64,000 bases of DNA, taken from positions 10,068,501 to 10,132,500 of the forward strand of contig NZ_CP011509.1 of assembly GCF_001027285.1 (NCBI RefSeq), read 5' to 3'. Position numbers and translations under genes: made by a program. The notes beneath the pieces were generated by a model. That model saw only the letters and a list, made by a program, of their open reading frames with translations, had not been told where the DNA came from and did not search any database. The DNA is from Archangium gephyra. Its GTDB lineage: Bacteria > Myxococcota > Myxococcia > Myxococcales > Myxococcaceae. This document shows, piece after piece, positions 7,657 to 49,521 of the stretch (positions are counted from its first letter, which is position 1; each line of letters begins with the position of its first letter).

Positions 7657-10256
7657 TGGACTCGCTCAGCCGCGCCCTCTCGCAACTCCCCCGCGACGAG
7701 GTGCGCGAGCTGCTCCCCGAGCACTTCCAGGCCCTCGCCCGCCTCTTCCCCGTCCTCCGGCTCAACGAGGACTCCCTGTCCCAGCAGCACGCGGAGCCCC
7801 TTCCGGAGGACCCCCTCCAGGCCAGGGCCCTCGCCGTGCGCGTGCTGAAGGAGCTGCTGCGGCGGATCGCCTCGCACAAGCCCCTGGTGCTGCTGCTGGA
7901 TGACCTCCAGTGGGGTGACCTCGACAGCGCCCGCTTCCTCGCGGAGCTGCTGTCGCCTCCCTTCGCGCCCCCGCTGCTGCTCGTGCTCAGCTACCGGAGC
8001 GACGAGGCCGCGAACAGCCCCTGCCTGGAGGCGCTGCGCCAGCTGCTGGAGCCGCTGTCGTGGACCGTCCCGCCCGTGGAGGTGGCCCTGCCGCCCCTCT
8101 CGCCCGAGGACTCCGCGCGCCTCGCCCTGGAGCGGCTGGGCGTGGAGGACCCCGCGGCTCGCGCCCAGGCCGAGCGCATCGCCCGGGAAGCCGGTGGCAG
8201 CCCGCTGCTGGCCGAGGAGTTCGTGCGCTACGTCACCTCGGACGGAGAGCGCGCCACCTCGGGAGAGCTGTCGCTCGGCCGCGTCGTCGACGCCCGCGTC
8301 CACCACCTGCCCGAGGGCGCACGCCAGCTCCTCGAGCTCCTCGCCGTGGCCGGTCATCCCCTGGAGCAGACACTCGCGCTCGACGCGGCACGGCCCTCCA
8401 AGGCCACGCTGTCGTCGCTCGCCCAGCTGCGCTCCGCCCACCTGCTTCGCACCCGCGCCACCCCCGGCGGTGTGGACCTCGAGGTGAGCCATGACCGCAT
8501 CCGCGAGCGGCTCGTGGAGACCCTCCAGGCCCCCGCCATCCAGGGCCACCACCGCCGGCTCGCCGAGGTGCTGGAGGCCCAGCCTCAGCCGGATCCCGAG
8601 CGGCTCGCGCTGCACCTCCACGGTGCGGGCGAGCTCGTCCGGGCCTCCCTCTACGCCCTCAGCGCCGCCGAGCGCGCCCGCGAGGCCCTGGCCTTCGCCC
8701 GGGCCGCGGAGCTGTATGGCCTCGCCCTCGAGTGGAGCCAGGGCACGCCGGTCTCCGGCCTGCCTCCCCGCGGTGAGCTGGAGCGGGCCCGGGCCGAGGC
8801 CCTCGCGCTCGCCGGCCGTGGCACCGAGGCGGCGCCCCTCTTCCTCCGCCTCGCCGAGGACGCCCCCGCCCACGAATGGCTGGAGCTCCAGTGCCGCGCC
8901 ATCGAGCACTACATGGTGGGTGGGCGGATCGACGACGGCACCGCGCTGCTCGGCCCCGTGCTCGAGCGGCTCGGCTTGAGCTACCCGCGCTCCACGGCCC
9001 GCGCGGTGCTGGAGGTCGTCTGGCTGCTGGCCCGGCTCAAGCTGCGCGGCATCGAGTTCACCGAGCGAGCCGAGTCCGAGGTGCCCCCCCTCCAGCTCCA
9101 GCGCATCGATCTGCTCTGGGCGCTGGGCCGGGCGCTGCTCAACGTGGAGCCCACGCGCGGCCTGCTCTTCCTGCTCCGGGGCCTGCTTCTGGCGCTCGAA
9201 GCCGGCGAGCCGCAGCGCGTAGCCCGTCCGCTGATCGCCTTCGGTGGCAACTGGTTGTTCCAGGGCTCCCCGGGCGCGCTGGAGTCGGGCACCCGCGACC
9301 TCGAGCGCGGCGCGGAGCTGGCCCGGCGGCTGGAGTCGCCCGAGCTGCTCGGCCTGACGGACATCTTCCGGGGCGTCCGCTCGTTCACCGTGGGCCAGTG
9401 GGCCGATGCGCTCGCCCAGGCGGATGCCGGCCTGGAGCGGATGCGCGAGAGCCGCCGGGACACCCTCTGGGAGGGCGGCATGGCGCGCACCATGGCGATG
9501 CTCACCCTGGACACCACGCATCGCATGACGGAGCTGCGCGAGCGCGGCGGAGACTGGTACCGCGTGGCCGTGGAGCAGGGGGACGCGTACTCGCAGATGA
9601 CGGCGCTGCTCGGCACCGGCATGGGACTGCTCGCCACCGGAGACGCGGAGGGCGCCTGCCAGCGCATGCGGGAGATCGCCGCCGCCTGGCCCCGGACGGG
9701 CACCATCCAGCACCTCTCCGTCTTCCTCGTGGAGGCCTGGGCCGACCTCTACCAGGGACAGCACGCCCGGGCCTGGCAGCGCATCACCCAGACGTGGCCC
9801 CAGGTGAAGTCCGCGCAGCTCCTGCGTGCCCTCGTGGGCCGGATGAAGATGTACACCCTGCGCGCATGCGGCGCGCTCGCCCATGCCGAGCACGACACGG
9901 GCGCACGGCAGAAGCTGCTCGCGAGCGCCGAGAAGGACGTGGAGCTCCTCGCCCGTCAGGGGCGCAGTGACTCCCTCCCGGTGGCCCACCTGCTCCGGGC
10001 CAGCATCGCCCGTCTCCGGGGAGACCCGGAGGGAGCGCGCTCGCACCTGTCCTCGGCCATCCAGGGCTTCGACGCCGCCGGCATGGCGGTCCACGCGGCC
10101 ATCGCCCGCCACCACCACGGAGGCCTCCTCGGCGGGGAGGAGGGCCGCGCCCTGGTGCGGACCGCCCACACGGTGATGACGTCCCACGGCATCGCCGAGC
10201 CCGCGCGCTGGGCCTCCACCTTCGCCCCGGGCTTCGCGGCCCCAGACACCCGATGA
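7437..10256 (+). CDS. Module A: STAND/AAA ATPase and TPR half of the PknK-like protein
   Basis: 939 residues as read from GTG 7437; in the intact paralogue (52784-56638) this is the continuation of the kinase chain. Residues 1-30 open with GREKELATLRAA, then the Walker A loop GLAGLGKSALL, and Walker B LLLDDLQWGDLDSA at about residue 155. The rest is helical and TPR-like, with a conserved final domain (ERDTLWEGGMARTMAMLTL-like region and GFDAAGMAVHAA near the end). STAND ATPases act as nucleotide-driven signalling switches. The GTG at 7437 is internal to the fused reading and has no ribosome site, so I do not think it is a true separate gene. It overlaps the next gene by four bases. Confidence 0.85.
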   Translation: MGREKELATLRAAASRGAAGETVLARVHGLAGLGKSALLESFAQELRREGHALVVSGRCYERESVPYKALDSLMDSLSRALSQLPRDEVRELLPEHFQALARLFPVLRLNEDSLSQQHAEPLPEDPLQARALAVRVLKELLRRIASHKPLVLLLDDLQWGDLDSARFLAELLSPPFAPPLLLVLSYRSDEAANSPCLEALRQLLEPLSWTVPPVEVALPPLSPEDSARLALERLGVEDPAARAQAERIAREAGGSPLLAEEFVRYVTSDGERATSGELSLGRVVDARVHHLPEGARQLLELLAVAGHPLEQTLALDAARPSKATLSSLAQLRSAHLLRTRATPGGVDLEVSHDRIRERLVETLQAPAIQGHHRRLAEVLEAQPQPDPERLALHLHGAGELVRASLYALSAAERAREALAFARAAELYGLALEWSQGTPVSGLPPRGELERARAEALALAGRGTEAAPLFLRLAEDAPAHEWLELQCRAIEHYMVGGRIDDGTALLGPVLERLGLSYPRSTARAVLEVVWLLARLKLRGIEFTERAESEVPPLQLQRIDLLWALGRALLNVEPTRGLLFLLRGLLLALEAGEPQRVARPLIAFGGNWLFQGSPGALESGTRDLERGAELARRLESPELLGLTDIFRGVRSFTVGQWADALAQADAGLERMRESRRDTLWEGGMARTMAMLTLDTTHRMTELRERGGDWYRVAVEQGDAYSQMTALLGTGMGLLATGDAEGACQRMREIAAAWPRTGTIQHLSVFLVEAWADLYQGQHARAWQRITQTWPQVKSAQLLRALVGRMKMYTLRACGALAHAEHDTGARQKLLASAEKDVELLARQGRSDSLPVAHLLRASIARLRGDPEGARSHLSSAIQGFDAAGMAVHAAIARHHHGGLLGGEEGRALVRTAHTVMTSHGIAEPARWASTFAPGFAAPDTR

Positions 10257-34674: not shown

Positions 34675-35664
<990 letters not shown>

Positions 35665-35683
35665 ATGTGCCGTCTCGACTGTC

Positions 35684-35711
35684 CCTAGGAGGAGGCGGGC
35701 AGCCTAGGAGG
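35684..35711. promoter_or_regulatory. Two CCTAGGAGG direct repeats in the moxR/hydrolase divergent region
   Basis: CCTAGGAGG occurs at 35684-35692 and 35703-35711, 19 bases apart start to start, in the 105-base region between the divergent moxR and hydrolase starts. Each repeat contains the palindrome CCTAGG. Spacing near two helical turns suits a DNA-binding protein; no motif from a known regulator was recognised. Confidence 0.3.
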
Positions 35712-35769
35712 TGTAGGTACGCCGCTCAACAACCCATCACGCCCGACATTCCAGTAATTTCAGGGGTCC

Positions 35770-36735
35770 ATGTCCCAGGAACCCTCCAGGAACGACCCTC
35801 GGGAGTACCCCAAACCACATCGGGACGGAGAACGCCAACCTTCTGGAGGCGCCCTCCCCCGCCCCCCGGGGCCGGTGGAGAGGGAGTTACTGGGAGAGTT
35901 GGCTCCGGGGATGACCTCCCGGGTGTGCCCGCTGCGAGGGGGTGGAGGGCTGCGGCTGCTGGAGGGGGGAGCGGGCCCGGCGGTGGTGCTGCTCCATGGC
36001 CGGGGGAACGCGGCGAGCATGTGGTTCCCGCTCCTCGGTGAGCTGGCCCGGGAGCACCGGGTGCTGGCGGTGGATCTGCCGGGGTTCGGGTGCTCCTCGG
36101 CGCCGGGAGGGGCGGTGAGGACGGCGGAGGACGGGCTGCGCTTCTTCGTCGAACCGGTGGAGGAGGTGCTGTCCACGCTGGCGCCGGGACCGATGACGCT
36201 GGTGGGGCACTCGCTGGGAGGGCTGGTGGCCCTGGAGCTGGCGCTGCGAGGCCGGGTGCCGGTGGAGCGGCTGGTGCTGGTGGACGCGATGGGGCTGGGC
36301 CCGGAGATGGCGCGGGATGCGCGGCTGTTCTTCCGCGTGGGCCCGGAGCGGGTGGCGCGGGTGCTGGGACCGAAGCGCTTCGGCCGCATCGCGCCGCTGC
36401 CGGACACGCCGCTGAACCGGAGGCTGGCGGCGCTGGGGTACGAGCTGATGACGGTGCCCGGTGGGAGACCCGAGGCCACGCGGGCCTTCAACACGCTGGT
36501 GCCCTTCACGGGCGGCGTGTTCCACCGGTACGAGCGGCTGGGCGAGGTGAAGCAACCCACCCTGCTCTACTGGGGCGAGCACGACACGGTGCTGCCCGTG
36601 TCGCTCGCCGAGGCCGCGGTGAAGGTCATGCCCGGCGCGCGGCTCGTGCGAGTACCGGCGGGGCACAGCCCGCACCTGGAAACACCGGCTGGTGTTTTCA
36701 TAGAACTAAAACCCCTCTCCTGTCAGCATCGCTAA
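35770..36735 (+). CDS. Alpha/beta-hydrolase, C-terminal end replaced at an insertion boundary
   Basis: 321 residues. Nucleophile elbow GHSLGG (Ser in PMTLVGHSLGGLVALELA), oxyanion region VVLLHGRGNAASMWFPLL, acid Asp in YWGEHDTVLPVS and catalytic His in PAGHSPHLE. The core ends after AGHSPHLETPAGVF, and the last residues (IELKPLSCQHR) are encoded by AT-richer DNA and are not like the usual C-terminal helix (HLExPxxFNxxxxxFL), so about 15 residues appear to have been lost or replaced. The catalytic residues are all before this point, so activity may remain. N-terminal ~40 residues are proline-rich and variable. Confidence 0.82.
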   Translation: MSQEPSRNDPREYPKPHRDGERQPSGGALPRPPGPVERELLGELAPGMTSRVCPLRGGGGLRLLEGGAGPAVVLLHGRGNAASMWFPLLGELAREHRVLAVDLPGFGCSSAPGGAVRTAEDGLRFFVEPVEEVLSTLAPGPMTLVGHSLGGLVALELALRGRVPVERLVLVDAMGLGPEMARDARLFFRVGPERVARVLGPKRFGRIAPLPDTPLNRRLAALGYELMTVPGGRPEATRAFNTLVPFTGGVFHRYERLGEVKQPTLLYWGEHDTVLPVSLAEAAVKVMPGARLVRVPAGHSPHLETPAGVFIELKPLSCQHR

Positions 36736-38160
36736 AAAGGGTTCGAAAACCCATCATTCCCTGAAAGTTCCCATGACGATTTTCGAAGACTACCGCGCCA
36801 ACATTCGCAACATCCATGAGTCTATTGTAGCAAAGCTACGCGACTGCGAATCCCATCCTGCGGTTGCAGCTGAACACTTCACCACCATCAATCTGATTCG
36901 AGACAGAGCTCGAACTCAGGCTCGTGATGCGATTGAGCGCAGCCAAGGCTACGAAGAGAGTGTATTCCAAAGAAAAAAACGGATAACCGACGAACCAAAG
37001 ATCATCCAAGCGAACATCGCGGATCTTGAGAAGAAGATTTCTGAGGCGAAAGCCCTCATCATTGATAGCAATTTAACCTACCAGAGTCACACTGCAACCG
37101 AGACCTCTAGCAACGAAGACAAGGAGATGCTTGCAGTGCAACTCTCGGGTATCCAGACCCGCCTTAACGCTCAACGCGATAGACTTCAAGCATTTGAAGA
37201 CTCCAAGCAGAATTTACTCAAGCGCCTCTCAGAAACCGAATCAGAAATCCCACAAAAGATACAAGACATCGAGGAAGAGTCCAATAGGGAAATCACTAGA
37301 GATAGGCACTTCAGGGAGCCCGAGTATTCGCTTCGAGACTTTCAGGCCCAAGTTGATTCGCTCTGGAAGGAGCTTGAGGTAACAAAGCGCCTGCGCGACG
37401 CTCTCAAGGCAGATTTCGAATCGAAATCACATGCATTCCTAGAGGCGGAGAAGTTCCATCGCGTAGAAGCAAGGGCGATGCTGTATGTAATGGGCGGCAT
37501 CGTCGCGCTCTGCGTAGTTATTGCAATCTACTTCCTAATCGTTGCAGATTATAGAATCCGCAACTCGGTCAGCCACGACACACAGGCAACGCAAGCGAAC
37601 GGCACAGCGACAAGTGCACCAATTCTCAATGCTGCGAGTGCCCCCCCAACTGCCCAGCCGCCGGTACCAACAAAGACCCCCTTGGACACCAATATACACA
37701 CACTCGAAGAAATTGCGCTCCTATTTGGCGGACGTATTGCACTCCTCGCTCTCGTTGCATGGGCACTCCGATATGTCGGAAACCTTCACCGAGCCCACTC
37801 CGAGCAATCGGTAATCTACCAAGACCGGCGGGCGGCACTTGGCATCATACAAAGCATGATCAACTCGGCGACAGAGAGCGACCAGCGACGAGAAATGCTC
37901 AAACTATTAGCTGAAAGGTATCTCGATTTTGAGCAGAGCGCGTTCCGAACACGCCCACACTCACCGGCCAACAAAGGCGACATACTTGACCGTGAGATCA
38001 AACACGTCAAGGACGCGGTGGACGCAGTCAAACCGCTATTCGACTCGGTAGGGAAGATTGCGGAGAAAGCAGTCGAACGAGTGAAATAGGCGAGTTGTTA
38101 ACTATATTTACTCTAATATCCGCTGCCCCTGGCGATTGCCGCGTCGACAGGGCCGATCTT
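36690..38160 (+). other. Low-GC island interrupting the hydrolase 3' end
   Basis: From about 36690 to 38160 the base composition falls to near 50% GC, against roughly 70% around it, and codon use changes (frequent A/T third bases). The left edge cuts the hydrolase C-terminus; the right edge lies in non-coding DNA just past 38100. Only one gene is inside. No integrase, transposase or clear terminal repeats were seen. Small hairpins lie at the left edge (AAACACC...GGTGTTT, 36681-36698) and at 36741-36752. Horizontal transfer is inferred from composition. Confidence 0.7.
36773..38089 (+). CDS. Coiled-coil protein with two membrane helices, foreign composition
   Basis: 438 residues from ATG 36773, weak ribosome site. 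Residues ~1-220 are mostly predicted coiled coil (KIIQANIADLEKKISEAKAL, QTRLNAQRDRLQAFEDSKQN, DIEEESNRE), followed by a membrane helix (AMLYVMGGIVALCVVIAIYF), a Ser/Thr/Pro/Ala-rich ~60-residue linker, a second membrane segment (LFGGRIALLALVAWALRY) and a helical cytoplasmic end. No enzymatic motif. The structure resembles membrane-anchored coiled-coil proteins of phage-defence or mobile islands, but I cannot name it. Codon use and GC differ sharply from all neighbours. Confidence 0.72.
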   Translation: MTIFEDYRANIRNIHESIVAKLRDCESHPAVAAEHFTTINLIRDRARTQARDAIERSQGYEESVFQRKKRITDEPKIIQANIADLEKKISEAKALIIDSNLTYQSHTATETSSNEDKEMLAVQLSGIQTRLNAQRDRLQAFEDSKQNLLKRLSETESEIPQKIQDIEEESNREITRDRHFREPEYSLRDFQAQVDSLWKELEVTKRLRDALKADFESKSHAFLEAEKFHRVEARAMLYVMGGIVALCVVIAIYFLIVADYRIRNSVSHDTQATQANGTATSAPILNAASAPPTAQPPVPTKTPLDTNIHTLEEIALLFGGRIALLALVAWALRYVGNLHRAHSEQSVIYQDRRAALGIIQSMINSATESDQRREMLKLLAERYLDFEQSAFRTRPHSPANKGDILDREIKHVKDAVDAVKPLFDSVGKIAEKAVERVK

Positions 38161-38172
38161 TCGAGGATGAGG

Positions 38173-38195
38173 TGACCTCCAAAGTTCAGAGGTCA
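38173..38195. repeat. 7-bp perfect inverted repeat between the island and the next gene
   Basis: TGACCTC at 38173-38179 and GAGGTCA at 38189-38195 with a nine-base loop. It may be a terminator-like hairpin, an operator, or an end of the island. No T-tract follows. Confidence 0.35.
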
Positions 38196-38272
38196 ACATG
38201 ACTTGAAAGCTCCTCCTCCGGCGAGGTGCGTAATAGTGTCCGCGCCGGACAACAAGTATGGGAGCCTTCCTC

Positions 38273-38704
38273 ATGCAAGTCACGACTTGGTTCATCGCGA
38301 AGGAAGACGAGGCGGAGGCAATCGAGTCGATCGTCACGACCGAGGAGCACGCCCCGGAGGACTGGACGTACCTCGAGCTCCCGCTCATCGAGATGGAGCT
38401 GATGGCGCTCTCCGCCACGCTCCGGGGAACGGAAGACATCACGGACGAGCGCACCCTGGAGGATCCACTCATCTTCCGGGAGGAGGACGGGCTGATCATC
38501 GCGCGCGTGGTGGAGGCCTTCATCCAGATGCTGGCCCGTGTGAAGGACGAGAGCATTCCCGGCCTCGTCAACGCCTGGGTGGAACGGAACGACCGGGAGC
38601 ACCACTCACCGGAGGAGTTGCGCGAATTCCTCTTGGAGATGGTGAAGTTCGCCCGGCAGGCGGTGTCACGCCGCAGCCCGGTGCTGTCGCTCGCGACGTT
38701 CTGA
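38273..38704 (+). CDS. Small acidic protein of unknown function
   Basis: 143 residues from ATG 38273 (GGGAG eight bases upstream; the ATG at 38258 lacks a site). The N-terminus reads VTTWFIAKEDEAEAIESIVT, followed by an acidic helical stretch (DWTYLELPLIEMELMALSA) and a C-terminal helix. No signal or membrane helix. It resembles conserved hypothetical proteins of myxobacteria, no domain recognised. It lies between the island and the rlaP-like pair. Confidence 0.7.
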   Translation: MQVTTWFIAKEDEAEAIESIVTTEEHAPEDWTYLELPLIEMELMALSATLRGTEDITDERTLEDPLIFREEDGLIIARVVEAFIQMLARVKDESIPGLVNAWVERNDREHHSPEELREFLLEMVKFARQAVSRRSPVLSLATF

Positions 38705-38776
38705 TGCCGGTTTGGAGTCAGGAGTCCGTGCCAGTAACGTCCATGGGAACCCTGTACTCCCCAGCCGGAGGCGCCC

Positions 38777-40081
38777 ATGAGCCGCGGATCCAAGACTCCC
38801 GAGCAGGACCGTTCCGAGGGCACCACCCGTCCCCGTGGCTATGAGCAGGTGGACAAGCTGTCCGTCCCCCTCCCCCACGGCACCGAGGTGACGACGCGCG
38901 TGGAGCGCGTGGCCGGTGACCGGCAGATCCCCCAGGGCGTGGTGGGCCGCGTGGTGCGCGCCCGTGGCGGCGGCTTCGACGTGCAGATCGTCGGCGTCGG
39001 CGAGCTCTGGTACGCCCGCGACGAGCTGGTGCCTCGCAAGCCGGGCCAGCTCCAGTTCGCGCTCCGGCGCGCCGCCACCTGGGACGCCCTGCGCCCCTGC
39101 GTGGTGCTGGAGACCGTGGTGGGCTCGCAGGCCTGGGGCCTCGCCAACGAGGCCTCCGACGTCGACATGCGCGGCGTCTTCGGCCTGCCCCTGCCCTGGC
39201 ACTTCGGCCTCGCCGACAAGGCGAGAGATCTCGTCAGCGCCGATGGCAGCCATACCTTCTGGGAGCTCTCCAAGACGGTGGAGCAGGCCCTGCGCGCCGA
39301 TCCCAACACCCTGGAGACGCTCTTCGTCCCCAGCGCCCGCGCCTCGGACGAGCTGGGGGAGTGGTTGCTCGCCGAGCGCGAGGCCTTCGTGTCCAAGGCC
39401 ATCTTCGGCAGCTTCGGCCGGTACGCCATGAGCCAGCTCGACAAGCTCACCCGCAGCCAGCGGCTCGCCGAGCACCGGGACCTGGTGCTCGAGTGGCTGT
39501 GCGAGGAGCCCGCTCCCAGCCTGGACGAGGTGGCCCGGCGGCTCGCGGCCATCTCCCCGCGCTCCGCGCCCTCGCCCGAGGACGCGCTGCTCGCGGCCAA
39601 GACGTACCTCAAGCAGCTCTACCGCTCGCTGTGGGACCAGGGCCTCATCGAGGCCAACGACTTCGCCGCCCTCACCCGCTATGCGCGCGGAGGCGGCCAG
39701 CGGCCTCCCAGCGCTCGCGAGCTGCGGCCGAAGAACGCCTACAACCTGCTGCGCCTGGTGGTGCTCGCCACCGGGTGGCTGCGGGAGGGGGTGCCCACCT
39801 TCGAAGTCACCGGCACCTACAAGGCACGCATGTTGGACATCAAGGCCGGACGTATCCCGCTGGAGGAGGTGCTGCGGGACGCCGAGGCCCTCGCACCGGA
39901 GCTGGAAGAGGCCCACCGCACCAGCAAGCTGCCGCAGCTCCCGGACTACGGGCGCGCGGACCGTCTGCTGCGGCGCGTGGGTGAGGAACTGGCGCGGCGC
40001 TGGGTGCAGCAGGTGCCCGGGCCGCTCGGCCGTGATGCCCCCGCGCCTCCGGCCGTCGAATGGAAGGAGGAGGAGTCATGA
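38777..40081 (+). CDS. RlaP-like nucleotidyltransferase with extra N-terminal region
   Basis: 434 residues; GGAGG six bases before the ATG. An N-terminal ~100-residue beta-rich region (VVGRVVRARGGGFDVQIVGVGE) precedes a nucleotidyltransferase fold with the motif VVGSQAWGLANEASDVDMRG: G-S, a spacer, then D-x-D. This is the pattern of the RlaP (RNA ligase-associated predicted nucleotidyltransferase, YcgL-like) family, followed by a helical domain. RlaP proteins are predicted to act in RNA end repair. The next gene encodes a second copy and overlaps it by four bases. Confidence 0.8.
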   Translation: MSRGSKTPEQDRSEGTTRPRGYEQVDKLSVPLPHGTEVTTRVERVAGDRQIPQGVVGRVVRARGGGFDVQIVGVGELWYARDELVPRKPGQLQFALRRAATWDALRPCVVLETVVGSQAWGLANEASDVDMRGVFGLPLPWHFGLADKARDLVSADGSHTFWELSKTVEQALRADPNTLETLFVPSARASDELGEWLLAEREAFVSKAIFGSFGRYAMSQLDKLTRSQRLAEHRDLVLEWLCEEPAPSLDEVARRLAAISPRSAPSPEDALLAAKTYLKQLYRSLWDQGLIEANDFAALTRYARGGGQRPPSARELRPKNAYNLLRLVVLATGWLREGVPTFEVTGTYKARMLDIKAGRIPLEEVLRDAEALAPELEEAHRTSKLPQLPDYGRADRLLRRVGEELARRWVQQVPGPLGRDAPAPPAVEWKEEES

Positions 40082-40863
40082 CCCACTCGCTGATGACGGA
40101 GCACCAGACCCGGGTGGCCAACGCCGTGCTCGACGAGGAGTCCACCCGGCGGTGGCACCTCGTCGTGTCCCTCTCGGGCGCGCACGCGTATGGCTTCCCC
40201 TCGCCCGACAGTGACCTGGACCTCAAGTGCATCCACGTCACCCCCACCGCCCACCTGCTCCGCCTGGAGCAGCGCGGCCCCGGGGCGTCCGCCGAGCGCC
40301 TGGAGGTCGTGGAGGGCGTCGAGGTGGACTACTCGTCCAACGAGCTCGGCCCCGTGCTGTTCGGCGTCCTCCAGGGCAATGGCAACTACCTGGAGCGGCT
40401 GCTCGGGGCGCACACGCTGCGCGGCTCGCCCGAGCTGGAGGCCGTGCGTCCGCTGGTGCGGGGCGTGTTGTCCCGGCGGCTGCACCGGCACTACCGTGGC
40501 TTCGCGCACGGCCAGCTGCGTGAGTGGGAGAAGACGGGCTTCCGCTCCACGAAGAAGCTCCTCTATGTGCTGCGCACCACGCTCACCGGCACCCATGCGC
40601 TGCTCACGGGCGAGGTGGAGACGGACCTCACCGCGCTGATGGACCGCTATGGTTTCAGCGAGGCGGGTGAGCTCGTCGCCTGGAAGCGGCGGGGTGAGCG
40701 CAGCGAGTTGCCCGAGGCCCTCTCCGAGCACTGGCGTGGCCAGGTGGAGCGCGCCTTCGAGCGGCTCGACTCCGCCCTCGAGCACTCCGTGCTACCGGAG
40801 GAGCCGCAGGGCACCGAGGCGCTGGAAGCGTGGTTGCTCGAGCTCCGGCGCTCACGGTTTTGA
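40078..40863 (+). CDS. Second RlaP-like nucleotidyltransferase
   Basis: 261 residues from ATG 40078 (ATGA overlap; AGGAGGAG upstream). Motif VSLSGAHAYGFPSPDSDLDLK: Ser-Gly-Ala-His, then D-x-D in SDLDLK, like family members of RlaP; the rest is helical. Compared with the first protein it lacks the N-terminal region. The tandem arrangement suggests the two work as a pair, maybe on different RNA ends or as a heterodimer. The 3' end overlaps the convergent alkD-like gene by 12 bases. Confidence 0.8.
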   Translation: MTHSLMTEHQTRVANAVLDEESTRRWHLVVSLSGAHAYGFPSPDSDLDLKCIHVTPTAHLLRLEQRGPGASAERLEVVEGVEVDYSSNELGPVLFGVLQGNGNYLERLLGAHTLRGSPELEAVRPLVRGVLSRRLHRHYRGFAHGQLREWEKTGFRSTKKLLYVLRTTLTGTHALLTGEVETDLTALMDRYGFSEAGELVAWKRRGERSELPEALSEHWRGQVERAFERLDSALEHSVLPEEPQGTEALEAWLLELRRSRF

Positions 40864-44849: not shown

Positions 44850-47252
44850 TCACCGGCTGGAGTCGCTGGCCTTCGTGCGGCCGGGCGAGCTGGCCAGGGG
44901 CTGCGAATCCAGCGATTGAAGCTCGGACTGGGCCGAGGACAGGTCGATGTCGGGCGGATCCTTGTGCTCGACCGGCTGCACATCCGGAAGCTCCAGCTTG
45001 GAGACGGACTTGCCGCTGAGCGAACCCGCCCCCAGCATCTTCACCTTACCGCCCTTCACCTTGATGTTCGAGCCGTCGATGGTCAGGGTCTTGGCGAACC
45101 ACTTGACGGCGCCGGACTTCTCCATGCTGACGATGAGGTTGCCCCCCACGATGAGCGAGAACTTGTCCGCCTTGAATTGAAAGGATTTGGCCATCGAGGC
45201 GGCGGCCTTCCCGACCTCGGTGTGCGATTTGGCCCCGACGTCTTCCTTCTGGTCCTTGCCAGCGGCCAGCGACACCGAGCCCTTGACCTGGGACTCGAAA
45301 TCACTGCCCACCTTGGTGGAGCGATCCTCGGCCACGCTCTCCTGACGCATGCCCGCGACGTACTCGAAGCTGGCGCCTCCCACCTTGACGGACTTGTCTT
45401 CCCCCACCGACTCGCTCTTCACCAAGGCGACATTGATGGAGTAGGCGGCCCCCACGGTCAGCGCGGCCCCCATGGACACGGAGGTGTTGGCGGTCTGCAC
45501 CACGAAGACCTTCTGCATTCCGCTCACCGTCACCGACTGGTTGCCTTCCACCTCCTCGTCATGGCTCCCACGGATGCCGGTGGTCCGGTTCCCCGTGACC
45601 TTGAGCGACTGGCTCCCCTCCACCAGGCCCATGTCCTCCTGCAGGACGCTCAGCGTCTGGTTGCCCTCGATGGTGCGCTGGCGATCCTTCTTCACGAGCA
45701 GCGCCTCGTTGGCGCGGATCTCCTGCGTCTTGTCGTTGCGGGTGTGCAGGTCATCGTCCTTCTGGGCATGAATGAAGACCTGTTCCTCGCCCGCGGCGTC
45801 CTCGAAGCGCAGCTCGTTGAAGCCATCGCTGTTGGGGCTGGAGGAGCTGCGCAGGGTGGAGCGCGTCTTCTCGTCCGGCAGCGGGTAGGGGGTGGGGTTC
45901 TGCCCGTTGTAGACGGCACCGGTGATGAGGGGCCGGTCCGGATCTCCCTCGAAGAACCGGATGACGACCTCCTGCCCCACCCGAGGCAGGAAGAGCCCAC
46001 CCCAGGCCGGGCCTCCCCAGACCTGGCCCGGGCGGATCCAACAGGAGCTCTTGTCGTCCTGGCCCCCCTCGCGATCCCAGTGGAACTGCACCTTGATACG
46101 GCCGTGCTCGTCGGGGTGGATCTCGTCTCCGGGAGAACCCGTCACGGTGGCGGTCTGGATGCCGGAGATGACCGGGCGGGGCGTCACGCGGCGCGGCCGG
46201 AAGGGCACATCCGAGGGAATGCAGCGGAACTCGTTCCGGTAGCGCCCCTGCCCCAGACCCTCGTGCCGCGTGTGCACCTCGGGCTGGTGGCCCACGTGAT
46301 GAACCTCCACCACCAGCAGCTTGCCTCCCGCGACCGCATCCAGCTCGAAGAAGTGTCCGGGGCACAACCGCGGACTGACACTGACACCCGACTGGGTCCG
46401 CTCGGATTGGAGCTGCTCCTCCAGCCGCACCTTGCTGAGCCGCTTGCCCTCCGAGGGCTCCACATACCTGGAGGGAAAGTCGTAGAGCTCGAGCGCGTCG
46501 AAGTCACCGGTCTTGGAGGGCTGGGCCGACAGGTCGAGCGCGGGCTTCTTGAAATCGAAGTCGCGCACCATGACCTTGCCGGGGCGCAACCGGTGCACCT
46601 GGGCCAGGGAGGAGGCGTGCTCCGCGTCCGACACCCGGCCGTCCTCCTCGCGGAACGGCAGCAGCGAGCCCCCCTCCATCTCCAGGTACGCCCCGGCGCT
46701 GTCTCCCAGCAGCAGCTGGTGCTCCTCCTCCGAGTGCGTGAAGAAGTAGAAGATGCCCTCCTCCTCCAGGAGGCGGGAGATGAAGTCGAAGTCCGACTCC
46801 CGGTACTGCACGCAGTACTCGCGAGGCGCATAGCTGCCGGACAGGGCGAAGCGGTGTTTCACCTGCCCCTCGTTGAGCACCTGCTTGACGATGTCCGGCA
46901 CGGCCTTGTGCTGGAAGATGCGGCTGCGACGCACGTGCTTGAGCCGCTCGAGCGTGGGCACCACCCGCAGGCGGTAGCGCAACCGGCCCGCCCGCAGGCC
47001 CAGCGCCTGGGCGCGATGCACCTGGCCATTCACGTAGCGCACCGGCTCGCCCGCGTGCTGGAAGGTCAACGTGGCCGGGGCGCCCAGCAACTCCGCCAGG
47101 GCCAGCGGCACGTCGGCGTGGGTGTAGAGCTCCAGGTTGAACTCGAAGGGCCGCGACAGTCCCTCCACCCCGGACAGCTGGGTGACCACGCTCTCCTCGG
47201 GGGCATGGCCGCCCACCTGGAGGCCAAACGCCATCTTGTCCGTCCATGCCAT
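44850..47252 (-). CDS. vgrG: Type VI secretion tip protein VgrG (copy 1)
   Basis: 800 residues. N-terminal gp27-like part with [20 protein letters not shown] and EEGIFYFF; gp5-like OB fold with [17 protein letters not shown] and SSCWIRPGQVWGGPAWGGLF, PRVGQEVVIRFFEGDPD; then a long beta-prism with V-x-G-N-Q-type repeats (TIEGNQTLSV, VEGSQSLKVTGN, VEGNQSVTVSG). After ~residue 720 the sequence changes to a polar tail (KLELPDVQPVEHKDPPD...), which may hold an effector or adaptor site. VgrG forms the puncturing tip of the T6SS. Confidence 0.95.
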   Translation of the reverse strand: MAWTDKMAFGLQVGGHAPEESVVTQLSGVEGLSRPFEFNLELYTHADVPLALAELLGAPATLTFQHAGEPVRYVNGQVHRAQALGLRAGRLRYRLRVVPTLERLKHVRRSRIFQHKAVPDIVKQVLNEGQVKHRFALSGSYAPREYCVQYRESDFDFISRLLEEEGIFYFFTHSEEEHQLLLGDSAGAYLEMEGGSLLPFREEDGRVSDAEHASSLAQVHRLRPGKVMVRDFDFKKPALDLSAQPSKTGDFDALELYDFPSRYVEPSEGKRLSKVRLEEQLQSERTQSGVSVSPRLCPGHFFELDAVAGGKLLVVEVHHVGHQPEVHTRHEGLGQGRYRNEFRCIPSDVPFRPRRVTPRPVISGIQTATVTGSPGDEIHPDEHGRIKVQFHWDREGGQDDKSSCWIRPGQVWGGPAWGGLFLPRVGQEVVIRFFEGDPDRPLITGAVYNGQNPTPYPLPDEKTRSTLRSSSSPNSDGFNELRFEDAAGEEQVFIHAQKDDDLHTRNDKTQEIRANEALLVKKDRQRTIEGNQTLSVLQEDMGLVEGSQSLKVTGNRTTGIRGSHDEEVEGNQSVTVSGMQKVFVVQTANTSVSMGAALTVGAAYSINVALVKSESVGEDKSVKVGGASFEYVAGMRQESVAEDRSTKVGSDFESQVKGSVSLAAGKDQKEDVGAKSHTEVGKAAASMAKSFQFKADKFSLIVGGNLIVSMEKSGAVKWFAKTLTIDGSNIKVKGGKVKMLGAGSLSGKSVSKLELPDVQPVEHKDPPDIDLSSAQSELQSLDSQPLASSPGRTKASDSSR

Positions 47253-47256
47253 GGCG

Positions 47257-49521
47257 TCAGTTCTCCGCGATCTTCGAGCCCTTGATGACCACGTCGCCGC
47301 TGGCGGTGATCTCCACCTTGGCGCCCTTGATGATCACATCCCCGTTCTTCTTGACCTGGAGGGTGGCGGAACCGACCTTGAGGGTGAACTGCTCCTCGGC
47401 CACCAGGGAGATCTCCTTGGCGGACAGGGTGTAGGAGTCCTTGACGGCGTGGTTGTGCTTGCCCCCCACACTCACCATCAAATCCTTGCCCACCTTGAGG
47501 CTGCGTGACTTCTGGACCTGCTCGGACAGGTCTCCGCCCACCTGGAGGCTGCGCGAGCCGAGGACCGTCTCGGACTTCTTGGCGCCGACGACCTCCGACT
47601 TGGCCCCGCCCACCTGCTCGGCCTTGAGACCTCCCACCAACTGGTTGAGGGCGCCGCCCACGCTGACGGAATAGGCACCGCCCACGTTGAGCATCTTCCC
47701 CAACCCCACCGTCTCGAGGGACGCCATGCTCACCATCACGCTCTGGCTGCCCCCCACGCTGACGGACTGGTCCACCGCCACCGTCTCGGTGTGGTTGCCG
47801 CCCACGGACGTCGAGCGATCCTTGTCCACCCGGAGCGACTGGTTGCCGCCGATGACGCTGTCGTCGTTCTTCTTCACCTCCAGGGACTGGTTGCCCTCGA
47901 TGGTGCGGCTGCGGTCCTTCTTGACGAGCAGCGTCTCGTTGCCGCCCACCTGCTGGGTCTTGTCGTTCTCGACGACGATGTCCAGGTCCTTCTGGGCGTG
48001 GAAATACACCTGCTCCTGGCCGGCCGCGTCCTCGAAACGCAGCTCGTTGGAGCCATTGCCGCCAGGACTGGAGCTGGAGCGCAGGGTGCTCCGCGTCTTG
48101 TCGTCCGGCAGGGAGATGGGCGGTGGATTCTCGCCGTTGTAGACGCTGCCGGTGACGAGGGGCCGATCGGGATCTCCCTCGAGGAACTCGACCACCACCT
48201 CGTGACCGATGCGAGGCAGGTAGAGGGCTCCCCAGCCGGGACCGGCCCAGGACTGGCTCACGCGAATCCAGCAGGAGCTCTTGTCGTCCCGGCCGCCCTC
48301 GCGGTCCCAGTGGAACTGCACCTTGATGCGGCCATGCTCGTCGGTGTGGATCTCCTCGCCCGAGGGCCCCACGACGATGGCCGTCTGGGCGCCCGGGATG
48401 AGGGGACGCGGGGTGGTGCGCGGCGGACGGTAGGGCACCTTGGCCGGGAGGCAGGTGAAGGTGTTGCGGTAGCTCTCCCGGCGGCCCTCGGGCTGGCCCT
48501 CGAAGAGGAGCACCTCGGGCTGGCGGCCCTCGTGGCGGGCGGAGAGGACGAGGTAGCCGCGGTTGAAGGAGTCCGCCGGGTGCTCGTCCAGCTCGAGGGT
48601 GTGGCCGGTGCGCAGACGCCGGCAATTGCTGGCACCGGAGGCGAGCTCCACCCGGGCCCGCAGCTCCTCCAGGCGCACCTTGGCGAGCGTCTTGCCGGTA
48701 CCAGGCGCCTCGTAGCAGCCCGGGTAGTCATAGACCTCGAGGGAGGACTCCGCCTCGTCGTCGGTGCTGGTGGCGGTGAGGTCCTGGGTGGGGCGGACGA
48801 AGTTGTAGTCCCGGAGGGCGACGGCACCGGGCTGCACCTGGAGCTGCGAGGAGAACTCGTGCACGTACTCGGCGTCGGCCACCATCGTGGTGGTGTTGCG
48901 GAAGACGAGCCGCGCCTCACCGGGCATGGCGGGGCAGCCGAGCGAGGTGTCGGCGAGCACCAGGGTATGGGCGTCCTCGGTGTGCTCGAAGTAGTAGAAG
49001 ATGCCCTCTTCCTCGAGCAGGCGGGAGACGAAGTCGAAGTCGGACTCGCGGTACTGCACGCAGTAGGTGCGCGTGGCGTAGGAGCCGTTCAGCTCGAGCC
49101 GGTGCTCCACGAGAGCGTCGCCGAGCACCTCGTGGACGATCTCGGGGACGGTCTTCTCCTGGAAGATGCGGCTGTTGCGGGTGTGCTTGAGCGTCCACCA
49201 GCGGGGCACCACGGTGATGCGGTAGCGAAGACGATCCTCGGAGGCGCCGGCTTCCCAGCGGGTGACACGCGAGACAACGCCGTGAAAGTAGCGCTCTCCG
49301 TCCTCACCCAGGTGCACGGCGAGCAGCGCGTTCTGCCCCAGCAGGGCCCGCTCATCCACGGACACGTCCGACGGAGCGGCCAGGAGGGCTTCCAACGTAT
49401 AGGGTTGTGAGATGGCTTCATCGGCCTCGAAGCCAATGACGGCCAATTCACCCAGCGCATGTGGGCCCACCTGGAAATCAAACTCAGCCTGATTTGCCAG
49501 GAGCGCAGCGGTTGCGACCAT
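47257..49521 (-). CDS. vgrG: Type VI secretion tip protein VgrG (copy 2)
   Basis: 754 residues from ATG 49521 (AAGGGGGG upstream; an ATG at 49569 lacks a site). Same architecture as copy 1, with [20 protein letters not shown] and [17 protein letters not shown], and a beta-prism with [27 protein letters not shown]; ends with [14 protein letters not shown] without a long extension. It is four bases before copy 1, so the two are co-transcribed. Tandem vgrG genes with no sheath genes here indicate an orphan vgrG cluster. Confidence 0.95.

Follow-up and report, generated by a model that had tools for sequence, protein, structure and literature searches.

Anti-phage genes are known in hotspots between conserved genes, and the gene described here resembles them in its variable site, patchy distribution and low GC; it differs in that its protein carries no known effector domain, and its role in defence is putative. 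In myxobacteria, SitA toxins are reported to be passed between cells via outer membrane exchange and to take part in kin discrimination (PMC5562445). Some sitA loci are described there as lying outside prophage-like elements, yet near other mobile DNA. The number of sitAI loci is given as 25-80 per genome in one account (PMC8546572) and as more than 80 in some genomes in another (PMC10047993), and the SitA/SitI cassettes are portrayed as strain-specific and likely horizontally acquired (PMC5562445, PMC8546572). SitA/SitI cassettes fill the same genomic interval in four congeners of the strain studied here, but a SitA protein is a lipoprotein that combines an escort domain with a toxin domain and comes with an immunity gene, whereas the gene in our strain encodes a lone coiled-coil membrane protein. 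SitA5 is abundant in the genus, with 39-57 SitA5_escort matches per genome in G000 (the window genome) to G005, so nearness to it has chance weight and one adjacency alone means little.

The window (the whole stretch of DNA analysed, 64,000 nucleotides) comes from a soil bacterium whose genome consists of a single contig of 12.49 Mb, and the SitA5 hits are in keeping with a myxobacterium. The following features were placed at the site:

35770 to 36735, plus strand: alpha/beta hydrolase gene, 321 aa, last 17 codons from the incoming segment (Pfam Abhydrolase_1, E 4.9e-28)
36681 to 38168, no strand assigned: inserted low-GC segment of about 1.49 kb, with no blastn match below E 1e-3 to other alleles of the site
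36773 to 38089, plus strand: gene of a coiled-coil membrane protein with two membrane helices, 438 aa, GC 0.512 (family alignment)
38169 to 38219, no strand assigned: right flank common to G001, containing TGACCTCCAAAGTT (74.5% over 51 bp, E 3.9e-4)
38258 to 38704, plus strand: conserved 148-aa gene, the right border of the variable locus (9 of 96 genomes of the bacterial family, in two genera)

The gene in the segment had a GC of 0.512 and a GC3 of 0.56, while the 49 other predicted window genes of at least 100 aa had a mean GC of 0.696 and a mean GC3 of 0.916 (lowest GC3 0.78). Stretches of 1317 bp outside the island had a minimum GC of 0.648 and a mean of 0.701 (sd 0.023, n=1195, overlapping), and those inside it had a GC of 0.507-0.515, about 8 sd low. 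A single intact ORF of 438 aa spans most of the segment, and the gene caller, trained on the window genes, left it uncalled. On the left, DNA identity to orthologous hydrolases ended at 36680 in G001, G002, G005 and G015, at 36667 against G004, and at 36688, 36681 and 36619 against the more distant G018, G019 and G021. The right edge lay at about 38168: homology to G001 started again at 38169, and the sequence matched G004 from 38238 on, at 95.2%. The alleles compared with the segment by blastn were L034-L037, L074, L075, L080 and L081. The first-pass annotation had described a sharp GC fall, a shift in codon usage and one gene inside, and the measurements agreed on each point (gene 51%, surroundings 70%; GC3 as above; a single ORF over most of the segment). 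Its bounds of 36690-38160 were therefore close to the measured edges, 36680 and 38169.

A 14-base motif, TGACCTCCRAAGTT, has a single copy in the window genome, where it marks the right edge of the site, and a single copy in G001, there at the left edge. One more copy was found in G028 and none in the remaining 19 of the 22 genomes. As this right-flank motif is common to G001 alone among the congeners, it is a possible junction trace and not an attachment site.

Orthologs of the hydrolase were present in four of the five congeners, with 82-88% identity. The hydrolase DNA was conserved through the codons for GHSPHLE and then diverged, which places the break in homology (36680) inside the gene, as expected from the insertion into the hydrolase end that had been proposed. 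After the break, the hydrolase frame runs through 17 foreign codons to a stop, so the tail was replaced and not lost. The full hydrolase domain was still recognised by Pfam, and the protein had 321 aa in the window, 319 in G004 and 324 in G001. The proposed loss of the normal C-terminus at the left edge thus held for the last 17 residues, which are changed, and failed for the length, which is not shortened. In the new tail, P and ELK are placed as in some other tails, and it agreed at 5 positions with the best of eight hand-picked relatives' tails (one of them a shortened duplicate); in a rough test 189 of 20,000 random insert frames equalled that agreement, so the resemblance is merely suggestive. 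In G001, the 3' end of the hydrolase is present a second time, as 75 bp after the protease gene; this copy is 89% identical to the resident one, about the divergence between the copies of separate species (87-91%). Elsewhere, in G108, several unrelated genes are enclosed by two hydrolase 3' halves (L083:3633-3959 and 8065-8343) that share 97.8% identity over 279 bp, and this looks like a duplication made upon DNA insertion. The hydrolase-end copies in G001 and G108 suggest that incoming DNA carried hydrolase ends, which would fit recombination in the flanks.

The distance from the hydrolase to the 148-aa gene was about 75 bp in G015, 1.6 kb in the window, 2.5 kb in G004, 5.5 kb in G002, 5.8 kb in G005 and 7.9 kb in G001, and in the second genus it was 34.4 kb in G094 and 35.6 kb in G093. 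These are eight of the nine genomes with the 148-aa gene, the ninth (G092) having its flanks on two contigs. The same flanks therefore enclose unrelated contents or almost none over 0.08-35.6 kb, as in a variable accessory-gene hotspot. A SitA5_escort protein above the curated cut-off lay within the interval in all four readable congeners (G004, G001, G002 and G005). G003 is uninformative on the site, as it lacks both the 148-aa gene and any close ortholog of the hydrolase. The genes adjoining SitA5 in G004 and G005 gave marginal pentapeptide-repeat matches, one just over the cut-off and the other under it. The G001 interval also holds a TPR aspartyl protease gene, a protein kinase gene and a DUF2381-like gene (the last by eye), and a DUF2381 gene is present in the G002 interval. 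The interval of G093 and G094 (L074-L077) contained 34-36 kb resembling a biosynthetic block, with acyl carrier protein-like and synthetase-like genes recognised by eye. Two further observations were made in the window: two adjacent RlaP-family genes (RNA repair polymerase beta-like, PF10127) at 38777-40863, just right of the variable locus, and a tandem pair of VgrG-like genes (Phage_GPD, Gp5_trimer_C, Phage_base_V) at 44853-49446.

The window gene had no match in any of the five congeners, and the same arrangement, which the first-pass annotation had said would argue against recent insertion, was thus not found in these relatives. The empty site that it had suggested looking for in related strains was found, nearly empty, in G015 (about 75 bp). 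Because all five congeners are without the gene and the G015 site is almost empty, the data support the acquisition of foreign DNA at the end of the hydrolase gene.

Three parts of the protein were located within the gene:

37487 to 37543, plus strand: first membrane helix, aa 239-257 (hydropathy)
37712 to 37768, plus strand: second membrane helix, aa 314-332 (hydropathy)
37784 to 37843, plus strand: most conserved stretch, aa 338-357, LHRxHxEQxxIYxDRxAALG (invariant columns in five of five members)

The hydropathy peaks and the long helices of the AlphaFold2 model (mean pLDDT 66 for the whole protein) were in line with the long coiled coil and two membrane helices predicted earlier. The N-terminal part was modelled as long and helical, with a block-mean pLDDT of up to 93, and the C-terminal module modelled alone had a mean pLDDT of 65.8. 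The membrane helices are separated by a Pro/Thr/Ala-rich loop, which is longer in the window protein (about 56 residues) than in the other members (21-26). The loop and the distribution of charges suggest that the coiled coil and the conserved C-terminal helix would be cytoplasmic and the loop outside.

Foldseek gave no match at E <=0.001 against the PDB and three matches at E <=0.001 against viral models, which were read as long-helix noise (TM scores <=0.21). The PDB sequence profile search gave 12 weak matches, mostly to coiled-coil proteins (best E 0.039). On PADLOC, the window protein matched ZorA at E 1.6e-6 (coiled-coil tail only), mREase_II at 0.019 and JetC at 0.41. Over the five members of the family, 15 PADLOC families appeared at E <=0.01 (for example the ZorA tail, LmuB, JetC and LeoBC), none of them common to more than two of the five members and none matching over a functional domain. 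The protein is like ZorA of Zorya in being a membrane protein with a long coiled coil, the match covering aa 97-216, but the match spans only positions 259-374 of the 461 of the profile, and one of the five family members gives it. No SitA model matched the window protein in an NCBIfam scan to E 1, the SitA5 escort model NF050093 included. Its N-terminus, MTIFEDYRANIRN, showed no lipoprotein signal by eye, and the segment holds one long ORF with no adjacent immunity gene.

DUF6161 proteins have a layout of coiled coil, two membrane helices and a C-terminal helix. DUF6161 was proposed as a hidden relative from this architecture, and the profile tests gave no support: the model (PF19658) returned no row for any of the five C-terminal fragments at E <=10, in a search where the HMMER filters drop most matches above 0.1, and hhalign against one DUF6161 member from the phylum gave a probability below 1%, a weak test because its template was a single sequence. 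The sole DUF6161 match among 189 phylum genomes was in G164 (L134, about 1501-2067), with the same layout and a C-terminal helix with NLALAHAEK. The term DUF6161 was absent from the open-access literature searched, and at the level of search results that literature held nothing on the gene, the site or the family.

The family contained five members among 195 phylum genomes: those of the window genome (G000), G080, G086, G124 and G015. The G015 member has a shorter C-terminus, without the last 34 profile positions, and G007, whose match was weak and partial (E 4.2e-4 over 74 profile positions), is not counted. A search of genome contigs with the family alignment found two Corallococcus loci, in Corallococcus interemptor AB047A and Corallococcus sp. 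CA053C, which are probably those of G080 and G086; the same contig collection gave no match to the window protein as a single sequence. The five genes had a GC of 0.475-0.526 in genomic stretches of 0.648-0.715. The dN/dS values were 0.14, 0.10 and 0.14 in the three computable pairs, and these are rough because dS was 1.3-3.1; seven of the ten pairs were saturated. On these values, the family looks to be under constraint.

Among 571 stop-to-stop frames within 5 kb of the five loci, the coiled-coil gene was common to all five; the other matches were shadow frames and an unlike alpha/beta hydrolase pair (27%, G000 and G080). No partner gene was common to the five neighbourhoods within these 5 kb. 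Three of the four other family loci were comparable with congeners, which had other content or none there. In G080, a Corallococcus, the gene is arranged tail to tail with a gene for a TacA-like antitoxin (Pfam TacA1 at E 0.0025, under the cut-off), and its end lies 21 bases past the antitoxin stop. Over 16 genomes of the genus, this site was without the interval in 10, held the antitoxin and a GNAT gene in 5, and held the antitoxin and the coiled-coil gene in G080 alone. The GNAT assignment rests on Pfam Acetyltransf_7 over the cut-off in one of the five genes, to which the other four are 88-96% identical. At L049:9020-10544 in G080, the TacA-like antitoxin gene is intact, the GNAT gene is absent and its slot is filled by the coiled-coil gene. 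The family is thus like a GNAT/TacA pair in occupying the exact GNAT slot beside the antitoxin, and unlike it in having no acetyltransferase match, in being convergent with the antitoxin and in that the other four loci are without such an antitoxin.

The G015 member has as neighbours a SitA5-AHH toxin gene, an Imm11 gene and a further ORF judged similar by eye (GC of the two immunity ORFs 0.578 and 0.538), and homology to three of three congeners ends before the coiled-coil gene. In G124, the gene adjoins a two-gene unit of an unknown 394-aa protein and a 244-aa DUF4365 protein, the three genes together lying at L051:8623-11746. These two neighbours also have a low GC (0.527 and 0.524), so the three genes may have arrived together, and the low-GC neighbours in G124 and the immunity ORFs in G015 mean that the gene need not always travel alone. 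The G124 site held 0.16-1.2 kb of other sequence between its flanks in the seven measurable genomes of the genus; in three closer genomes the right flank lay past the end of the stretch compared. The G086 member is flanked by a DDE_3 fragment on one side and an rve transposase gene on the other.

Signs of mobility were sought at the segment itself. No terminal repeats, which the first-pass annotation had suggested looking for, were found in 36550-38400; no tRNA genes occurred in the whole 64-kb window, and Rfam gave no match across 35500-39500. No integrase or transposase was recognised by eye in the first 55 residues of the called window genes, which agrees with the earlier view that no mobility gene is visible. 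Terminator-like and promoter-like sites were at chance level only, and an alignment of the five family loci gave no conserved flanks past the gene, hence no shared cassette ends. An integrative mobile element was rejected on the lack of an integrase or transposase (by eye), attachment repeats and a tRNA. A toxin-antitoxin module was not supported either, the segment having one gene and not a two-gene unit, with no partner common to the five loci.

The account that we consider moderately likely is that the segment is an accessory gene cassette at a variable conflict-gene locus, trading places with conflict genes, and that its product is a putative stand-alone protein of the inner membrane with a part in conflict or defence. 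That the segment is a cassette is well supported; the role in conflict or defence is probable and inferred. As the closest relatives keep toxin genes at the same spot, the gene probably represents an exchangeable weapon or shield, and not a broken remnant. The locus overlaps the hydrolase gene in part and otherwise lies downstream of it, and here one low-GC gene stands in place of the contents found in other strains. Recombination in the flanking DNA presumably exchanges the pieces, which bring no enzyme for this themselves. The coiled coil could sense an invader or a toxin, with the protein acting at the membrane in an abortive-type defence; as another option, a stand-alone conflict protein could block toxin entry at the membrane. 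Against the cassette account stand the points that no family, fold or partner assigns a function, that there are five members only and that the G086 context is merely IS-rich. Its main rival, possible though doubtful, is that horizontal transfer brought an ordinary orphan gene (for a prophage moron or an envelope protein, say) into a permissive intergenic hotspot, and that toxins are near because hotspots of this kind gather genes of every sort. The rival is kept because the hotspot also takes non-conflict genes, such as the aspartyl protease and protein kinase of G001, the DUF2381 gene of G002 and the 34-36 kb of other genes, and because SitA5 genes are abundant; the protein also has no functional match. 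However, the exact toxin-gene exchange in G080, the SitA5-immunity adjacency in G015 and the DUF4365 unit in G124 make more than one coincidence, and searches of phage records, plasmids and viral contigs with the window protein, the G080 protein or the alignment as queries returned no relative.

That the gene belongs to a toxin-antitoxin or toxin-immunity pair, its other half having been lost or lying elsewhere, is improbable. The G080 gene does sit in the toxin slot beside an intact TacA-like antitoxin, and two low-GC genes lie beside the G124 member, but the five neighbourhoods share no partner within 5 kb, and in G080 the antitoxin is the partner of the missing GNAT toxin and is encoded convergently to the coiled-coil gene. 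The earlier reading of the segment as a decayed remnant of a larger integrative island we regard as extremely unlikely: an intact ORF in a constrained-looking family, the lack of terminal repeats and tRNA genes, the lack of an integrase by eye, and the fact that no examined other allele is a larger version of the segment outweigh the sharp composition change and the replaced hydrolase tail. From that reading, the link to conflict held circumstantially (SitA5 in four of the four readable congeners), and the remnant part was unsupported because one intact gene of such a family looks more like one of the several contents that a variable site can take. A bolder form of the cassette account, in which the gene is the first representative of a new class of stand-alone conflict genes acting at the inner membrane, which myxobacteria swap one-for-one with toxin modules (the SitA5 slot in the window, GNAT in Corallococcus), is unlikely; under such one-for-one exchange, the protein may be a membrane gate against toxins or phages using the same entry route.

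The analysis brings out an unnamed protein family, here found only in one phylum, that recurs where toxins normally sit. Kin-discrimination genes are gained and lost at the hydrolase-anchored locus, which would make it possible to test directly how strains acquire and shed the genes of their social identity.
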